Assembly (NCBI RefSeq): GCF_024178165.1
Contig: NZ_JAMZIE010000006.1
Span: 62,001-126,000 of the forward strand
Origin: Halohasta salina
Lineage (GTDB): Archaea; Halobacteriota; Halobacteria; Halobacteriales; Haloferacaceae
Direction: 5' to 3'
Length of the DNA: 64,000 nucleotides
Part shown: in pieces, positions 58,757-64,000 of the stretch
How the letters are laid out: each line of letters begins with the position of its first letter
Numbering within the stretch: the first letter of the stretch is position 1
Position numbers and translations under genes: made by a program
The notes under the pieces: generated by a model
Databases searched by the model: none
What the model saw: the letters and a program-made list of their open reading frames with translations, nothing else
Told to the model about the DNA's origin: nothing

Positions 58757-58762
58757 TTTATA
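58757..58762 (+). promoter_or_regulatory. TATA box of permuted binding-protein gene
   Basis: TTTATA, 29 bases before the ATG at 58789, preceded by an AT-rich tract of A and C. Confidence 0.6.
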
Positions 58763-58788: not shown

Positions 58789-60123
58789 ATGTATCGTGAC
58801 ATACATAGACGTGATGTGGTGAGAGGACTCGGCATCGCCGGCGTGGCAGGGCTAGCCGGCTGTGCCGGCAACGAATCGCCCGAGGATACGGGCGACGGCT
58901 CGGACGACGGCGGGGCCGGCGGCGTCCCGGACGCGGTGATGATCGTCGGCTTCCCGGAGTCGGGCGTCCAGTTGTTCCGCGACTACTACTCGGAGTTCGC
59001 CAGCGATGCGTCCGATCTCGATATTATCGTTCCCGACGGGCTGATGGACGCCGATCTGCCCGGCGAGGTCGACAACGACATGAACAACGTCATCGGGACT
59101 CAGCCCTCGGCGGGCGGTCCGGGTGCGGAGTTTTTCACCAGCGAGTATCAGGCCGCCTACGACGAGGAGCCCGGCGTCTTCACCGCGCAGGCCTACGACG
59201 CGATGGCGATCAACGTGCTGGCGGCGGTCGCTGCCGGCGAGAACTCCGGCAGCGCGATCCGCGACCGGATCCGGACGGTCGCCAACCCCGGCGGCGAGGA
59301 GTTCGGCCCCGAGACGCTGGTCGACGCCGTCGAGACCGTCGCCGCCGGCGATCCGGTCCACTACGTGGGAGCCTCCTCGAGCGCCAATTTCGATGTCAAC
59401 GGTGACATCGTCACCGCGGCCTACGACATCCGCGACTTCCAGGACGGCGCGCTGGAGACGATCGACACCGTCGAGTTCGGCACCGGACTCTCCGAGGAGG
59501 ACGAAAACGCGACTGCGGCCGATCCGGTCGGCGTCGACTCCTTCGAGGCGATGGTCGGCGTGCTGATGCCCGAAACCGGTGATCTCGGCCCGCTCGGCGG
59601 GCCGATCCGCGACGGCGCACTGCTGGCGGCCGACCAGATCAACGCCGCCGACATCAACGTTACCGTCGACACGCAGGTCGAGGACACCCAGACCAACCCA
59701 CAGGCGGGGATTTCGGGAGCCAACGCACTGGTCAACGCCGGCTACGGCGCGGTCGTCGGCCCGGCGTCGTCCAACGTCAACCTGCAGGTGGCCGATCAGG
59801 TGTTGATTCCGAGCGGCGTCGTCGGCATCTCGCCGTCGTCGACCGATCCGGACGTGACCGATCTCGACGACGATGGCTACATCTTCCGGACCTGTCCTTC
59901 GGACGTCTTGCAGGGGCCGGCGCTGGCGGAACTCGCCCGCGGCGAGTACGTCGAGGCCGAGAGCTCGGGGACGCTCTACCTCAACGACGCCTACGGACAG
60001 GCGCTCGAAGAACAGTACGCTACCAACTTCGAGGACAACGGCGGCTCGATCGGCCAGCGCGTCTCCTTCGAGCCCGAACAGGCCTCCTACTCCAGCCAGT
60101 GGAGCACCGTCCTGAACCAGTAG
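58789..60123 (+). CDS. Liv-type ABC substrate-binding lipoprotein, apparently circularly permuted
   Basis: 444-residue secreted lipoprotein of the branched-chain amino acid binding family. A Tat-like signal (HRRDVVRGLG) and lipobox GLAGC (Cys25) are followed by an Asp/Gly-rich linker. Residues 46-235 then carry what is normally the second half (AVMIVGFPESGVQLFRDYY, LPGEVDNDMNNVIGT, GVFTAQAYDAMAINVL, VANPGGEEFGPE). Residues 250-444 carry what is normally the first half (VGVLMPETGDLGPLG, VEDTQTNPQAGISGANALV, YIFRTCPSDVLQGP, LYLNDAYGQ), ending SYSSQWSTVLNQ. Joining the end to residue 46 restores the usual order. The frame is intact with its own promoter. It is convergent with livFGMH, its likely permease. 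Confidence 0.85.
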   Translation: MYRDIHRRDVVRGLGIAGVAGLAGCAGNESPEDTGDGSDDGGAGGVPDAVMIVGFPESGVQLFRDYYSEFASDASDLDIIVPDGLMDADLPGEVDNDMNNVIGTQPSAGGPGAEFFTSEYQAAYDEEPGVFTAQAYDAMAINVLAAVAAGENSGSAIRDRIRTVANPGGEEFGPETLVDAVETVAAGDPVHYVGASSSANFDVNGDIVTAAYDIRDFQDGALETIDTVEFGTGLSEEDENATAADPVGVDSFEAMVGVLMPETGDLGPLGGPIRDGALLAADQINAADINVTVDTQVEDTQTNPQAGISGANALVNAGYGAVVGPASSNVNLQVADQVLIPSGVVGISPSSTDPDVTDLDDDGYIFRTCPSDVLQGPALAELARGEYVEAESSGTLYLNDAYGQALEEQYATNFEDNGGSIGQRVSFEPEQASYSSQWSTVLNQ

Positions 60124-60480: not shown

Positions 60481-61275
60481 TTAGCCGCCGAGGAAGTCCT
60501 GCCGGACCTGCTCGTCGCCCAGCAGCGTCTCCCCGCGGTCGGTGTAGCGGTTCTCGCCGTCGACCAGCACGTACCCCCGGTCACACCGCCGGAGGGCCTC
60601 CTTGGCGTTCTGTTCGACCATCAGGATCGCCGTCCCCGACTCGTTGATCCGGTCGATGCGGTCGAACATGTCGTCGACGAGGTCGGGAGCTAACCCCGCC
60701 GAGGGTTCGTCGAGCAACAGCAGGTCGGGGTCGAGCATCAGCGTCCGACCCATGGCGACCATCTGCCGCTGGCCGCCCGAGAGGTTCCCGGCCTTCTGGT
60801 CGCGGCGCTCCCGGAGGATCGGGAACCGGTCGTAGACGGCTTCGAGCCGGTCTTGGGGGACCGAATCGAGGATGTAGGCCCCCATTTCGAGGTTCTCTTC
60901 GACGCTGAGCCCCGGAAACACGTTGTCGGTCTGGGGGACGAAGCCGATCCCCTCGTGGATGATCTCCTCGGGCGGGGTGGCTTCGATGGCCTCGCCGTCG
61001 AACTCGATGGTGCCGTCCATGTAGGTCGTCAGCCCGAAGACCGTCTTCATTACCGTCGACTTCCCCGCGCCGTTGGGGCCGACGATGGTAACGTACTCGC
61101 CGTCGGCCACGTCGAGGTCGACGTCGGTGAGGATCTGGAGGTCGCCGTAGCCAGCATCGAGCCCGCGGATGCGAAGCATCGCCTCGTCGTCGAGGGTGTG
61201 GTCGGTGCGGGCGGTCGCCCCCGCTGACTCGTTAGGATCCGCGTCGGTGCCGACATCCGCCGAGTCGCCGTTCAT
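60481..61275 (-). CDS. livF: Branched-chain amino acid ABC importer, ATPase LivF
   Basis: 264-residue ATPase. Walker A VGPNGAGKST, signature NLSGGQRQMVAMGR, Walker B LLLLDEPSAGLAP and a Q-loop in VPQTDNVFPGLSVEENLEMGAY typical of LivF. A 35-residue acidic N-terminal extension precedes the domain. The ATG overlaps the livG stop (ATGA). Last recognised gene of livHMGF; substrates are presumed branched-chain or other hydrophobic amino acids. Confidence 0.93.
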   Translation of the reverse strand: MNGDSADVGTDADPNESAGATARTDHTLDDEAMLRIRGLDAGYGDLQILTDVDLDVADGEYVTIVGPNGAGKSTVMKTVFGLTTYMDGTIEFDGEAIEATPPEEIIHEGIGFVPQTDNVFPGLSVEENLEMGAYILDSVPQDRLEAVYDRFPILRERRDQKAGNLSGGQRQMVAMGRTLMLDPDLLLLDEPSAGLAPDLVDDMFDRIDRINESGTAILMVEQNAKEALRRCDRGYVLVDGENRYTDRGETLLGDEQVRQDFLGG

Positions 61276-62117
61276 AGGTCATCCCCCAGATAGGCCTCGA
61301 TAACGCGGTCGTTGGTTCTGATCTCTTCGGCCCCGCCTTCGGCGAGGACCTGTCCCTGATGCATGACGATGATGTGTTCGCAGTGGTGCATGATCACGTC
61401 CATGTCGTGTTCGACCAGCAGGAAGGTGTACCCCTCTGCCCGGAGGTCGTCGACCCGATCTAACAGTTTCTCTTCGAGGGTTGGGTTGACGCCGGCCAGC
61501 GGCTCGTCGAGCAACACCACCTCGGGGTCGGTCATCAGCGCGCGGGCCATCTCCAAGAGCTTCCGCTGGCCGCCCGAGAGGCTCCCCGCGTACTCGGTCG
61601 CGAGGTGGTCGATCTCGAAGAACTCCAAGGTCTCCCACGCCCGTTCGCGGAGCTGTTCTTCTTGGTCGACCACACCCCCACGGAGCCCCGGCAGCACCGA
61701 TCGGAGCGCCGACTCCCCCTGTTGGTTTTTCGGGGCCAACATGAGGTTCTCCAGGACCGTCATCTCCGGCAGCTCACGGGCGATCTGGAACGTTCGGACC
61801 AGCCCGCGCTGGGCGATCTCGTAGGGCGCGAGCCCCGTGATCGCCTCGCCGTTGAGGTAGACGTCCCCCGCGGTCGGCTCGTGGACGCCCGTGATGCAGT
61901 TGAACGTCGTCGACTTCCCCGCGCCGTTGGGGCCGATCAGTCCCGTCAGGCTCCCGGATTCGACCTCGAAGGAGACGCCGTCGACGGCCGTGATGCCGCC
62001 GAACTCCTTGCGGAGCCCGTCGACCCGCAGCGGGAGCCCCGACGGCGTCCGCTGGGCGGCCTGTTCGACCGGCGAATCCGCTGCCTCGGGGTCCGTATCG
62101 GCCGCTGGCTCACTCAT
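61272..62117 (-). CDS. livG: Branched-chain amino acid ABC importer, ATPase LivG
   Basis: 281-residue ATPase. Walker A IGPNGAGKST, the LivG-typical RGLVRTFQIARELPEMTVLENLMLAP, signature SLSGGQRKLLEMAR, Walker B VVLLDEPLAGVNP and switch His in LLVEHDMDVIM. The ATG at 62117 gives an 8-base overlap with the livM end. The in-frame extension further upstream reads through livM and is rejected. Confidence 0.94.
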   Translation of the reverse strand: MSEPAADTDPEAADSPVEQAAQRTPSGLPLRVDGLRKEFGGITAVDGVSFEVESGSLTGLIGPNGAGKSTTFNCITGVHEPTAGDVYLNGEAITGLAPYEIAQRGLVRTFQIARELPEMTVLENLMLAPKNQQGESALRSVLPGLRGGVVDQEEQLRERAWETLEFFEIDHLATEYAGSLSGGQRKLLEMARALMTDPEVVLLDEPLAGVNPTLEEKLLDRVDDLRAEGYTFLLVEHDMDVIMHHCEHIIVMHQGQVLAEGGAEEIRTNDRVIEAYLGDDL

Positions 62118-63438
62118 CGCGCTCACCTCCCTCGCGGCGCGTGAGGTCGACGGCCGCGGCGGTCTCGATCCGGTCGCCGAGCAGCCCGTCGGGTCGACGA
62201 TGCATGATGAAGATGAGAACCAACCCCAGCAAGACGAACTGGAGTGGCGCGATGTTGTCGGTGGCGTACGCCAGCAGCCCGACCGGATCGGCTGCCGCGA
62301 CCGCGTCGCCGAACGTCGGTGGCGTCGGCGCGTCGATGGTATCTCGGAGCACTGCTCCCACACGGCGGGGGCCCTCGAACAACACCGCCGCGAAGACGAT
62401 GCCGCCGAGGACGCTGCCGGTGTTCGACCCCGAGCCGCCGATGATGACCGCGACGAAGATGTAGAAGGTGAGGATCGGCTCGAACTGCGGCGACGGCGAG
62501 ACGTTGCCCTGGCTGCCGAACCAGAGAATGCCCGCCAGCCCCATCAGCGCACAGCCGATCATGAACACCTTGATCTTGATGAGGTCGACGTTCTTGCCGA
62601 GCGAGTCGGCGACGAGTTCGTCCTCGCGGATCGCCTTCAGCGTCCGGCCGAACGGCGACCGCCCGAGCCGTTCGAGCAGCACGTAGAAGGCGACGACGAA
62701 CACCGCCAACACGAGGATATACCCCCAGCCGATGAGGATGTTGTTCGAGATGCCGAGGCCGCCCTCTCCGAGGGTGCCGAAGACGGCCGCCCCGAGGGCG
62801 GTCGGATCGCCCGCCCGCCCGTCGACGAGGAACAGTCCCCGGACCGGGTTCTGGGGCATCCCCATCCCCCGGCCGCCGCCGGTGCCGACGCCCAGCGTCT
62901 CGCGGAGCGCGGTATCGAACGTGCTCGACTGGAGGGTCAGCCGGATGATCTCGGAGAGGCCGAGGGTGACGATGGCGAAGTAGTCCGCCCGGAGCCGGAG
63001 CGCCGGCAGCGCTGCGATCAGCCCGAACAGCGACGCCATCGCCATGCCGGCAACGATGCCGACCGGCAGCGGGAGGCCGAATCCCGGCGGGCCGAAGGCC
63101 GGATCCGGCGATCGGACGACGATCCCCATGGTGTAGACGCCGATTGCCATGAACCCCGCGACGCCGATATTAAAGAGGCCGGTGTACCCCCAGTGGAGGT
63201 TGAGCGCGAGCGTCGACAGCGCGTACACCAATCCGAGGAACGTCAGCGTCCGTAGCAGCCCGACGACGCTGTTGAGGCCGTCGGTGAACGTCAGCAGCGT
63301 CGCCCCGAGGTAGATCAGGCCGAGCGTGAGGACGACCAGCCCGAGATCGCTCCGCTTGGCGGCCGCGAGGACCGCCGCCAGCGCACTGTCGGGCTCCCGG
63401 TCGACCATCGTATCGTCCGGCGCGGTGGCGTCGCTCAT
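62110..63438 (-). CDS. livM: Branched-chain amino acid ABC importer, permease LivM
   Basis: 442-residue permease with about ten transmembrane helices. The LivM landmarks LNLHWGYTGLFNIGVAGFMAIG, LRADYFAIVTLGLSEIIRL and the EAA-like loop FGRTLKAIREDELVADSLGKNV are present, as is the closing GGSGSNTGSVLGG. The loop between about 200 and 265 is longer than in bacteria, a usual haloarchaeal feature. The ATG overlaps the livH stop (ATGA). Confidence 0.94.
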   Translation of the reverse strand: MSDATAPDDTMVDREPDSALAAVLAAAKRSDLGLVVLTLGLIYLGATLLTFTDGLNSVVGLLRTLTFLGLVYALSTLALNLHWGYTGLFNIGVAGFMAIGVYTMGIVVRSPDPAFGPPGFGLPLPVGIVAGMAMASLFGLIAALPALRLRADYFAIVTLGLSEIIRLTLQSSTFDTALRETLGVGTGGGRGMGMPQNPVRGLFLVDGRAGDPTALGAAVFGTLGEGGLGISNNILIGWGYILVLAVFVVAFYVLLERLGRSPFGRTLKAIREDELVADSLGKNVDLIKIKVFMIGCALMGLAGILWFGSQGNVSPSPQFEPILTFYIFVAVIIGGSGSNTGSVLGGIVFAAVLFEGPRRVGAVLRDTIDAPTPPTFGDAVAAADPVGLLAYATDNIAPLQFVLLGLVLIFIMHRRPDGLLGDRIETAAAVDLTRREGGERDE

Positions 63439-64000
63439 GCGGTCGACACCCCGCCGAACAGCCCCTCAGGGCGAAGCAAGAGAACGAGAATCATCACTGC
63501 GAAGGCCGCCGCGGCGTTGAAATCCGAGGAGATCCAGACCGTCGACGTCGTAAAGACCAGTCCGATGACGAGCCCGCCGGCGATCGCGCCGTAGATCGAG
63601 CCGATGCCGCCGAGGATGACCGCCGCGAAGATGAGCAACAGGAGGCTCCAGCCGAAGTCGAACTGGATCGTCCCCCGCAACAGGACATAGAGGTAGCCCG
63701 ACGCTCCCGCGAGGCCGCCGCCGAGGATCCACGTCGCCGCGACGACGCGCTCGGCGGGGATACCAGTGATCAGCGCCAGATCCTTGTTGTCGGCCATCGC
63801 CCGCATCGCCGTCCCGAGTTTGGTCCGCTGGAGGGTGTAGTGCATCGCCACCATGAGCCCGATGGCGGCGACCGCGATCGTCAACTGGTGGGCGGTCACC
63901 GAGACCCCCAGCGGGGTCGCGAGAGTGTCGCCGTCGACGCTGGCGGTGATCCCCCGGCGGTCGGCCCCATAGGCGAACTGGATGAGGTACCGCACGACCA
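63435..64000 (-). CDS. livH: Branched-chain amino acid ABC importer, permease LivH (5' end outside window)
   Basis: C-terminal 188 residues or so of LivH. Landmarks: QRTKLGTAMRAMADNKDLALITGIPAERV (the EAA loop), GGLAGASGYLYVL and ILGGIGSIYGAIAGGLVIGL. The reading frame stays open to the right edge, so the start codon and first helices are not in the window. The GTG at 63995 is internal. Confidence 0.92.
   Translation of the reverse strand, partial: VVRYLIQFAYGADRRGITASVDGDTLATPLGVSVTAHQLTIAVAAIGLMVAMHYTLQRTKLGTAMRAMADNKDLALITGIPAERVVAATWILGGGLAGASGYLYVLLRGTIQFDFGWSLLLLIFAAVILGGIGSIYGAIAGGLVIGLVFTTSTVWISSDFNAAAAFAVMILVLLLRPEGLFGGVSTA

Follow-up and report, generated by a model that had tools for sequence, protein, structure and literature searches.

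A circularly permuted Liv-type binding protein beside livFGMH in haloarchaea, with evidence for recurrent permutation at one loop

The window (the whole 64,000-nt stretch of DNA analysed) carries an open reading frame on the forward strand that runs from an ATG at 58789 to a stop codon at 60121-60123 and encodes a protein of 444 aa. The parts of this protein follow the order signal-B-linker-A, whereas other Liv-type binding proteins are built as signal-A-B, A and B being the canonical first and second halves. The features of the locus are:

58757 to 58762, plus strand: TATA-box-like TTTATA, 27-32 nt upstream of the ATG (from sequence)
58789 to 58863, plus strand: twin-arginine-type lipoprotein signal (RRDVVRG ... 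LAGC, Cys25), from sequence; the signals of orthologues match
58864 to 58926, plus strand: low-complexity Asp/Gly/Ser tether from the putatively lipid-anchored Cys to segment B (pLDDT below 50 up to residue 43)
58927 to 59484, plus strand: segment B, residues 47-232, the canonical Liv second half (homology)
59485 to 59544, plus strand: new acidic linker, residues 233-252, bridging the former C and N termini; clade-specific and predicted to be ordered
59545 to 60123, plus strand: segment A, residues 253-444 and stop, the canonical Liv first half, ending at the A/B junction (homology)
60481 to 61275, minus strand: livF ATPase (Pfam ABC_tran), convergent with the binding-protein gene, as in most genomes examined
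61275 to 62105, minus strand: livG ATPase (extent from tblastn, start codon approximate)
62110 to 63438, minus strand: livM permease (Pfam BPD_transp_2)
63435 to 64000, minus strand: livH permease (Pfam BPD_transp_2), continuing beyond the window

The TTTATA element is presumably an archaeal promoter, going by the general consensus; it remains putative, and the transcript is probably leaderless. The lipoprotein signal reads RRDVVRGLGIAGVAGLAGC. A tail-to-tail arrangement of the binding-protein gene and livF-livG-livM-livH is shared by most genomes examined, be the gene permuted, ordinary or from an archaeal outgroup. In the window genome the adjacent LivHMGF has no other binding protein alongside it, so its receptor is most likely the permuted protein. 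The same genome has one other Liv set, of ordinary order, on a separate contig. The neighbours beyond livH gave no clue to the substrate, and the DNA repeats around the gene showed no plausible recombination footprint.

The exchange of the two halves is apparent from several alignments. Pfam Peripla_BP_6 (positions 4-185) maps to residues 256-440, and residues 11-172 of PDB 4n0q, from the N-terminal part of a Liv protein, align to residues 254-416; residues 264-312 of PDB 4gnr align to 113-163. With canonical relatives (L025, L026-L033), tblastn yields A and B as two separate pieces in the reverse of their order in the 444-aa protein, A coming before B. The protein ends after STVLNQ and its segment B starts at PDAVMIVGF, and these points lie on either side of the canonical A/B junction. 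In the canonical genes measured, 3 residues separate the helix core from the "PD" at this junction; the permuted proteins stop 1-4 residues past that core. A comprises the first five N-lobe strands and then the opening two beta-alpha units of the C-lobe, with the remainder of both lobes in B; we take this assignment from the known Liv fold and the strand order from the predicted model. A preliminary description of this DNA had placed a C-lobe ahead of an N-lobe after the signal. The swapped order is borne out by the Pfam, PDB Liv and tblastn alignments of the halves; what has changed places, however, are the second and first halves of the protein rather than whole lobes, as the cut falls inside the C-lobe. 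The terminal SSQWSTVLNQ, which had been read as the point after which the C-lobe normally begins, does mark the canonical A/B junction, but this junction is not a lobe boundary. Both halves are homologous to the Type I (cluster B) family PF13458, and the linear A-then-B order is absent. Judging from these alignments, the 444-aa protein is a permuted derivative of the Type I (cluster B) Liv family and not a standard member.

At least 21 Halorubrum contigs show the B-linker-A order as a single tblastn alignment, with 71-81% identity. In the family, a single alignment through B-linker-A is obtained from 110 of 171 genomes, to which one interrupted copy is to be added, and across the order Halobacteriales approximately 160 of 392 sampled genomes have a permuted copy (best E below 1e-95). 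The best ordinary-order match lies near 1e-74 and all matches listed below the cut are permuted; the weakest of the 160 or so genomes were counted by E value, with matches listed down to about 1e-108. Most other Halobacteriales genomes show the ordinary order. Haloarchaeal Liv proteins had been said to run N-lobe then C-lobe, and this is true of the genomes keeping the ordinary order but not of the permuted ones; homologues sharing the permuted order, for which the preliminary description advised a search, were found in Halorubrum and in the wider family and order. The description had missed the wide distribution of this order in Halobacteriales and its apparently multiple origins. Outside Halobacteriales, within the phylum, only the ordinary order occurs among the matches listed. 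No further permuted relatives were found in the viral contigs searched, and plasmid matches consisted of two pieces over about 1.1 kb, fitting the ordinary order and adding no permuted case.

Some genomes depart from the one-gene pattern. Permuted and ordinary relatives coexist at different loci in G082, G189, G118 and G202 (L150, L151, L152 and L159), some of the ordinary ones having liv genes of their own. In G100 two permuted copies lie about 11 kb apart (L081:3369-16038), one of which has an open frame that continues into unrelated sequence instead of stopping at the usual place. At L160:7155-8551 (G120:C2), a locus of the window's clade, about 1.4 kb of sequence with an ORF for a 388-aa transposase-like protein interrupts the gene.

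To count the origins, rooted trees of A, B and LivHMGF combined were built for 81 loci and, more carefully and with bootstraps, for 45; all trees other than the 45-locus one rest on fast searches. In both, the permuted genes fall into three clades; in the 45-locus tree at least four changes of order are needed, three of them forced by starred branches, and 0% of the bootstrap trees have a single change. Clade I is large and spans many families. Clade II, which includes the window's gene, consists of Halorubrum and relatives together with G210, G231 and G300, and is sister, with 99/100 support, to ordinary genes of the genera g14, g16, g24, g25, g65 and part of g21. Clade III (g46 and g89) groups with the ordinary L098 and L124. 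Linkers are conserved within clades and differ between them, reading roughly FEGxNPxGxGPxADSxPGGxGR in clade I, roughly EEDxNATAxDPVGVDxFxA in clade II, and IPQPEPxGSGS or similar in clade III. With A+B (p 0.013), with A alone (0.0016) and with LivHMGF (5e-56), AU tests on groups defined after the tree had been seen reject placing all permuted genes in one clade; B alone is compatible with one origin (p 0.086 across all permuted genes, 0.22 for the main and window clades). Among fixed site differences, those joining clade II to its ordinary sisters outnumber those joining it to clade I, at 19:1 in A and 7:2 in B. The permuted loci are polyphyletic. At least three origins of the permutation are strongly but not conclusively supported, because the B half taken alone does not reject one origin. 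Our preferred reading, to which we would give a probability of roughly 0.75, is that of a working permuted Liv-type lipoprotein for LivHMGF that arose at least three times in place, at the same loop, likely by duplication.

The main rival to this reading is a single origin, either one ancient permutation followed by reversions to the ordinary order, or half-wise gene conversion between permuted and ordinary copies residing together, followed by differential loss. Its best argument is the site of the cut, as all three permuted clades are cut in the same loop, within about 3 residues, and three independent cuts so close together would need a strong structural or mechanistic reason, which counts against multiple origins. 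The behaviour of the B half in the AU test and the four genomes holding both forms at different loci point in the same direction. However, by a hand count on the rooted tree, this explanation requires some six reversions as opposed to three to four gains. The A half and the transporter reject one clade, and even in the B half the site patterns side with the ordinary sisters. The linkers show no clear motif common to the clades, and the A/B spacing of ordinary genes equals that of the archaeal outgroups. In sum, we consider a single origin, in its two forms together, unlikely.

If the permutation arose repeatedly in place, the most likely route would be tandem duplication and fusion of the ordinary gene, after which the outer parts would have been trimmed to leave signal-B-linker-A; duplication with loss of the outer parts is also what the preliminary description proposed. 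A model of permutation by duplication is available (PMC3320104). No fused A-B-A-B dimer was found. The gene at L129:5396-6739 (G414:C7:20395-21738) encodes a protein (P0002) arranged as signal-A'-B-linker-A'', with A' starting from about residue 290, A'' extending to about residue 302, and a linker of clade I type. By its sequence, this is a second, different permutation that took place inside clade I and kept the clade I linker; L129 comes from one draft genome, and no second case of the arrangement was seen in 392 genomes. At L108:5021-7609 (G251) and L112:3709-6461 (G303), two permuted binding-protein genes lie in tandem beside a single livFGMH set. Each copy pairs with its counterpart in the tree; thus, this duplication predates the species split. 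L129 and the tandem copies fit permutation by duplication.

The same protein could have been reached by fission and fusion, two separately encoded halves being joined up again in reverse order, or by segment A moving directly, without duplication, a rather improbable course that concerns the mechanism only and overlaps with the explanation preferred here. The product would be identical, and three new junctions are required under any route because the signal peptide stays in front. Nevertheless, the loci examined contain no separate A-only or B-only gene, the A'-B-linker-A'' order of L129 is natural from a duplicated array and hard to obtain from fission, and the tandem permuted copies at L108 and L112 likewise speak for duplication.

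Both halves are under purifying selection: the median Nei-Gojobori dN/dS is 0.22 in B and 0.23 in A, compared with 0.30 in the signal/tether and likewise in the linker. An AlphaFold model computed from an alignment of 33 rows (19 partial) comprising orthologues and canonical half-sequences has a pLDDT of 79 and a pTM of 0.78, with values of 83-86 in the linker block; a model from the 21 close Halorubrum orthologues alone (pLDDT 31) was discarded. The cut sits between helix 435-441 and strand 49-53 of the model. The best Foldseek matches are Leu/Ile/Val-binding proteins over about 198 columns, the span expected as a sequential alignment can follow only one half of a permuted protein; it is from the predicted model and these matches that the bilobed alpha/beta fold is predicted. 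An assembly join or a decaying pseudogene, suggested by the odd order alone, is a negligible prospect when independent assemblies of many species, several of them single-contig, share the intact order, when selection is purifying and when signal and stop are clean. The earlier view of a real permutation rather than decay is thus upheld by orthologues in many independent assemblies, by dN/dS and by the predicted fold.

As to the working of the protein, the chain would be exported by the Tat pathway and lipid-anchored, and would close on its ligand as other binding proteins do and dock on LivHM. The common cut and that of L129 both fall in helix-to-strand loops, given the strand order of the model. 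In this fold such loops lie away from the ligand cleft, and it is the strand ends that hold the ligand. The cleft would therefore be kept, and tolerance of both cuts would be explained. The lipid anchor, in turn, would shift from the first N-lobe strand to a middle strand of the C-lobe. An anchor on the C-lobe instead of the N-lobe would be the common consequence of the shared cut, and we hypothesize that it has an adaptive role. At least three independent permutations at one loop and one elsewhere would make this a recurrent and probably selected change, perhaps for the anchor move; we hold this to be somewhat more probable than its contrary.

Natural circular permutations are mostly known as distant protein pairs, which makes it difficult to reconstruct how they came about. 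The haloarchaeal orthologues occupy one locus in hundreds of genomes whether they are permuted or not; the permuted ones have clade-specific linkers, and one of them is a secondary permutant. With such a locus one can ask directly how permutations originate, what makes the same cut recur, and whether docking on the importer changes once the anchor has moved. On the practical side, annotation that depends on order can miss half of a permuted protein.

The closest known relatives are the canonical Liv/Leu-binding proteins (Type I cluster B; PF13458; PDB 4n0q, 1usg, 3td9), which are homologous in both halves, likewise paired with LivHMGF, and of the same fold as that predicted here. The permuted protein differs from them by its swapped halves, an extra linker, new termini inside the C-lobe and a moved anchor. 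Permuted haloarchaeal Liv proteins are not reported in the open-access literature that we searched, subscription journals being mostly outside the scope of the search. TpMglB-2 (Tp0684) of Treponema pallidum, assigned to "Type Ic / cluster Bc", is a natural permuted Type I lipoprotein of an ABC importer, for which an adaptation to membrane tethering has been suggested (PMC4990184). Both proteins are circular permutations relative to Type I. In TpMglB-2 the first three N-lobe strands have moved to the C terminus, whereas about 190 residues (five N-lobe strands and two C-lobe units) have moved in the haloarchaeal protein; the former belongs to the MglB (glucose/galactose) family, while the latter best matches Leu/Ile/Val-binding proteins. 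The passages of PMC4990184 consulted report no repeated origin of the permutation. An unrelated family, the C5 DNA methyltransferases, has been proposed to have undergone several permutations, each affecting the same region, and permutation by duplication has been put forward there (PMC5944983), as we propose here for one loop. In the haloarchaea, by contrast, a single syntenic locus holds both the ordinary and the permuted forms, which allows the events to be placed on a tree. A natural permuted binding protein is thus already known; what is unusual in the present case is recurrence at one site.
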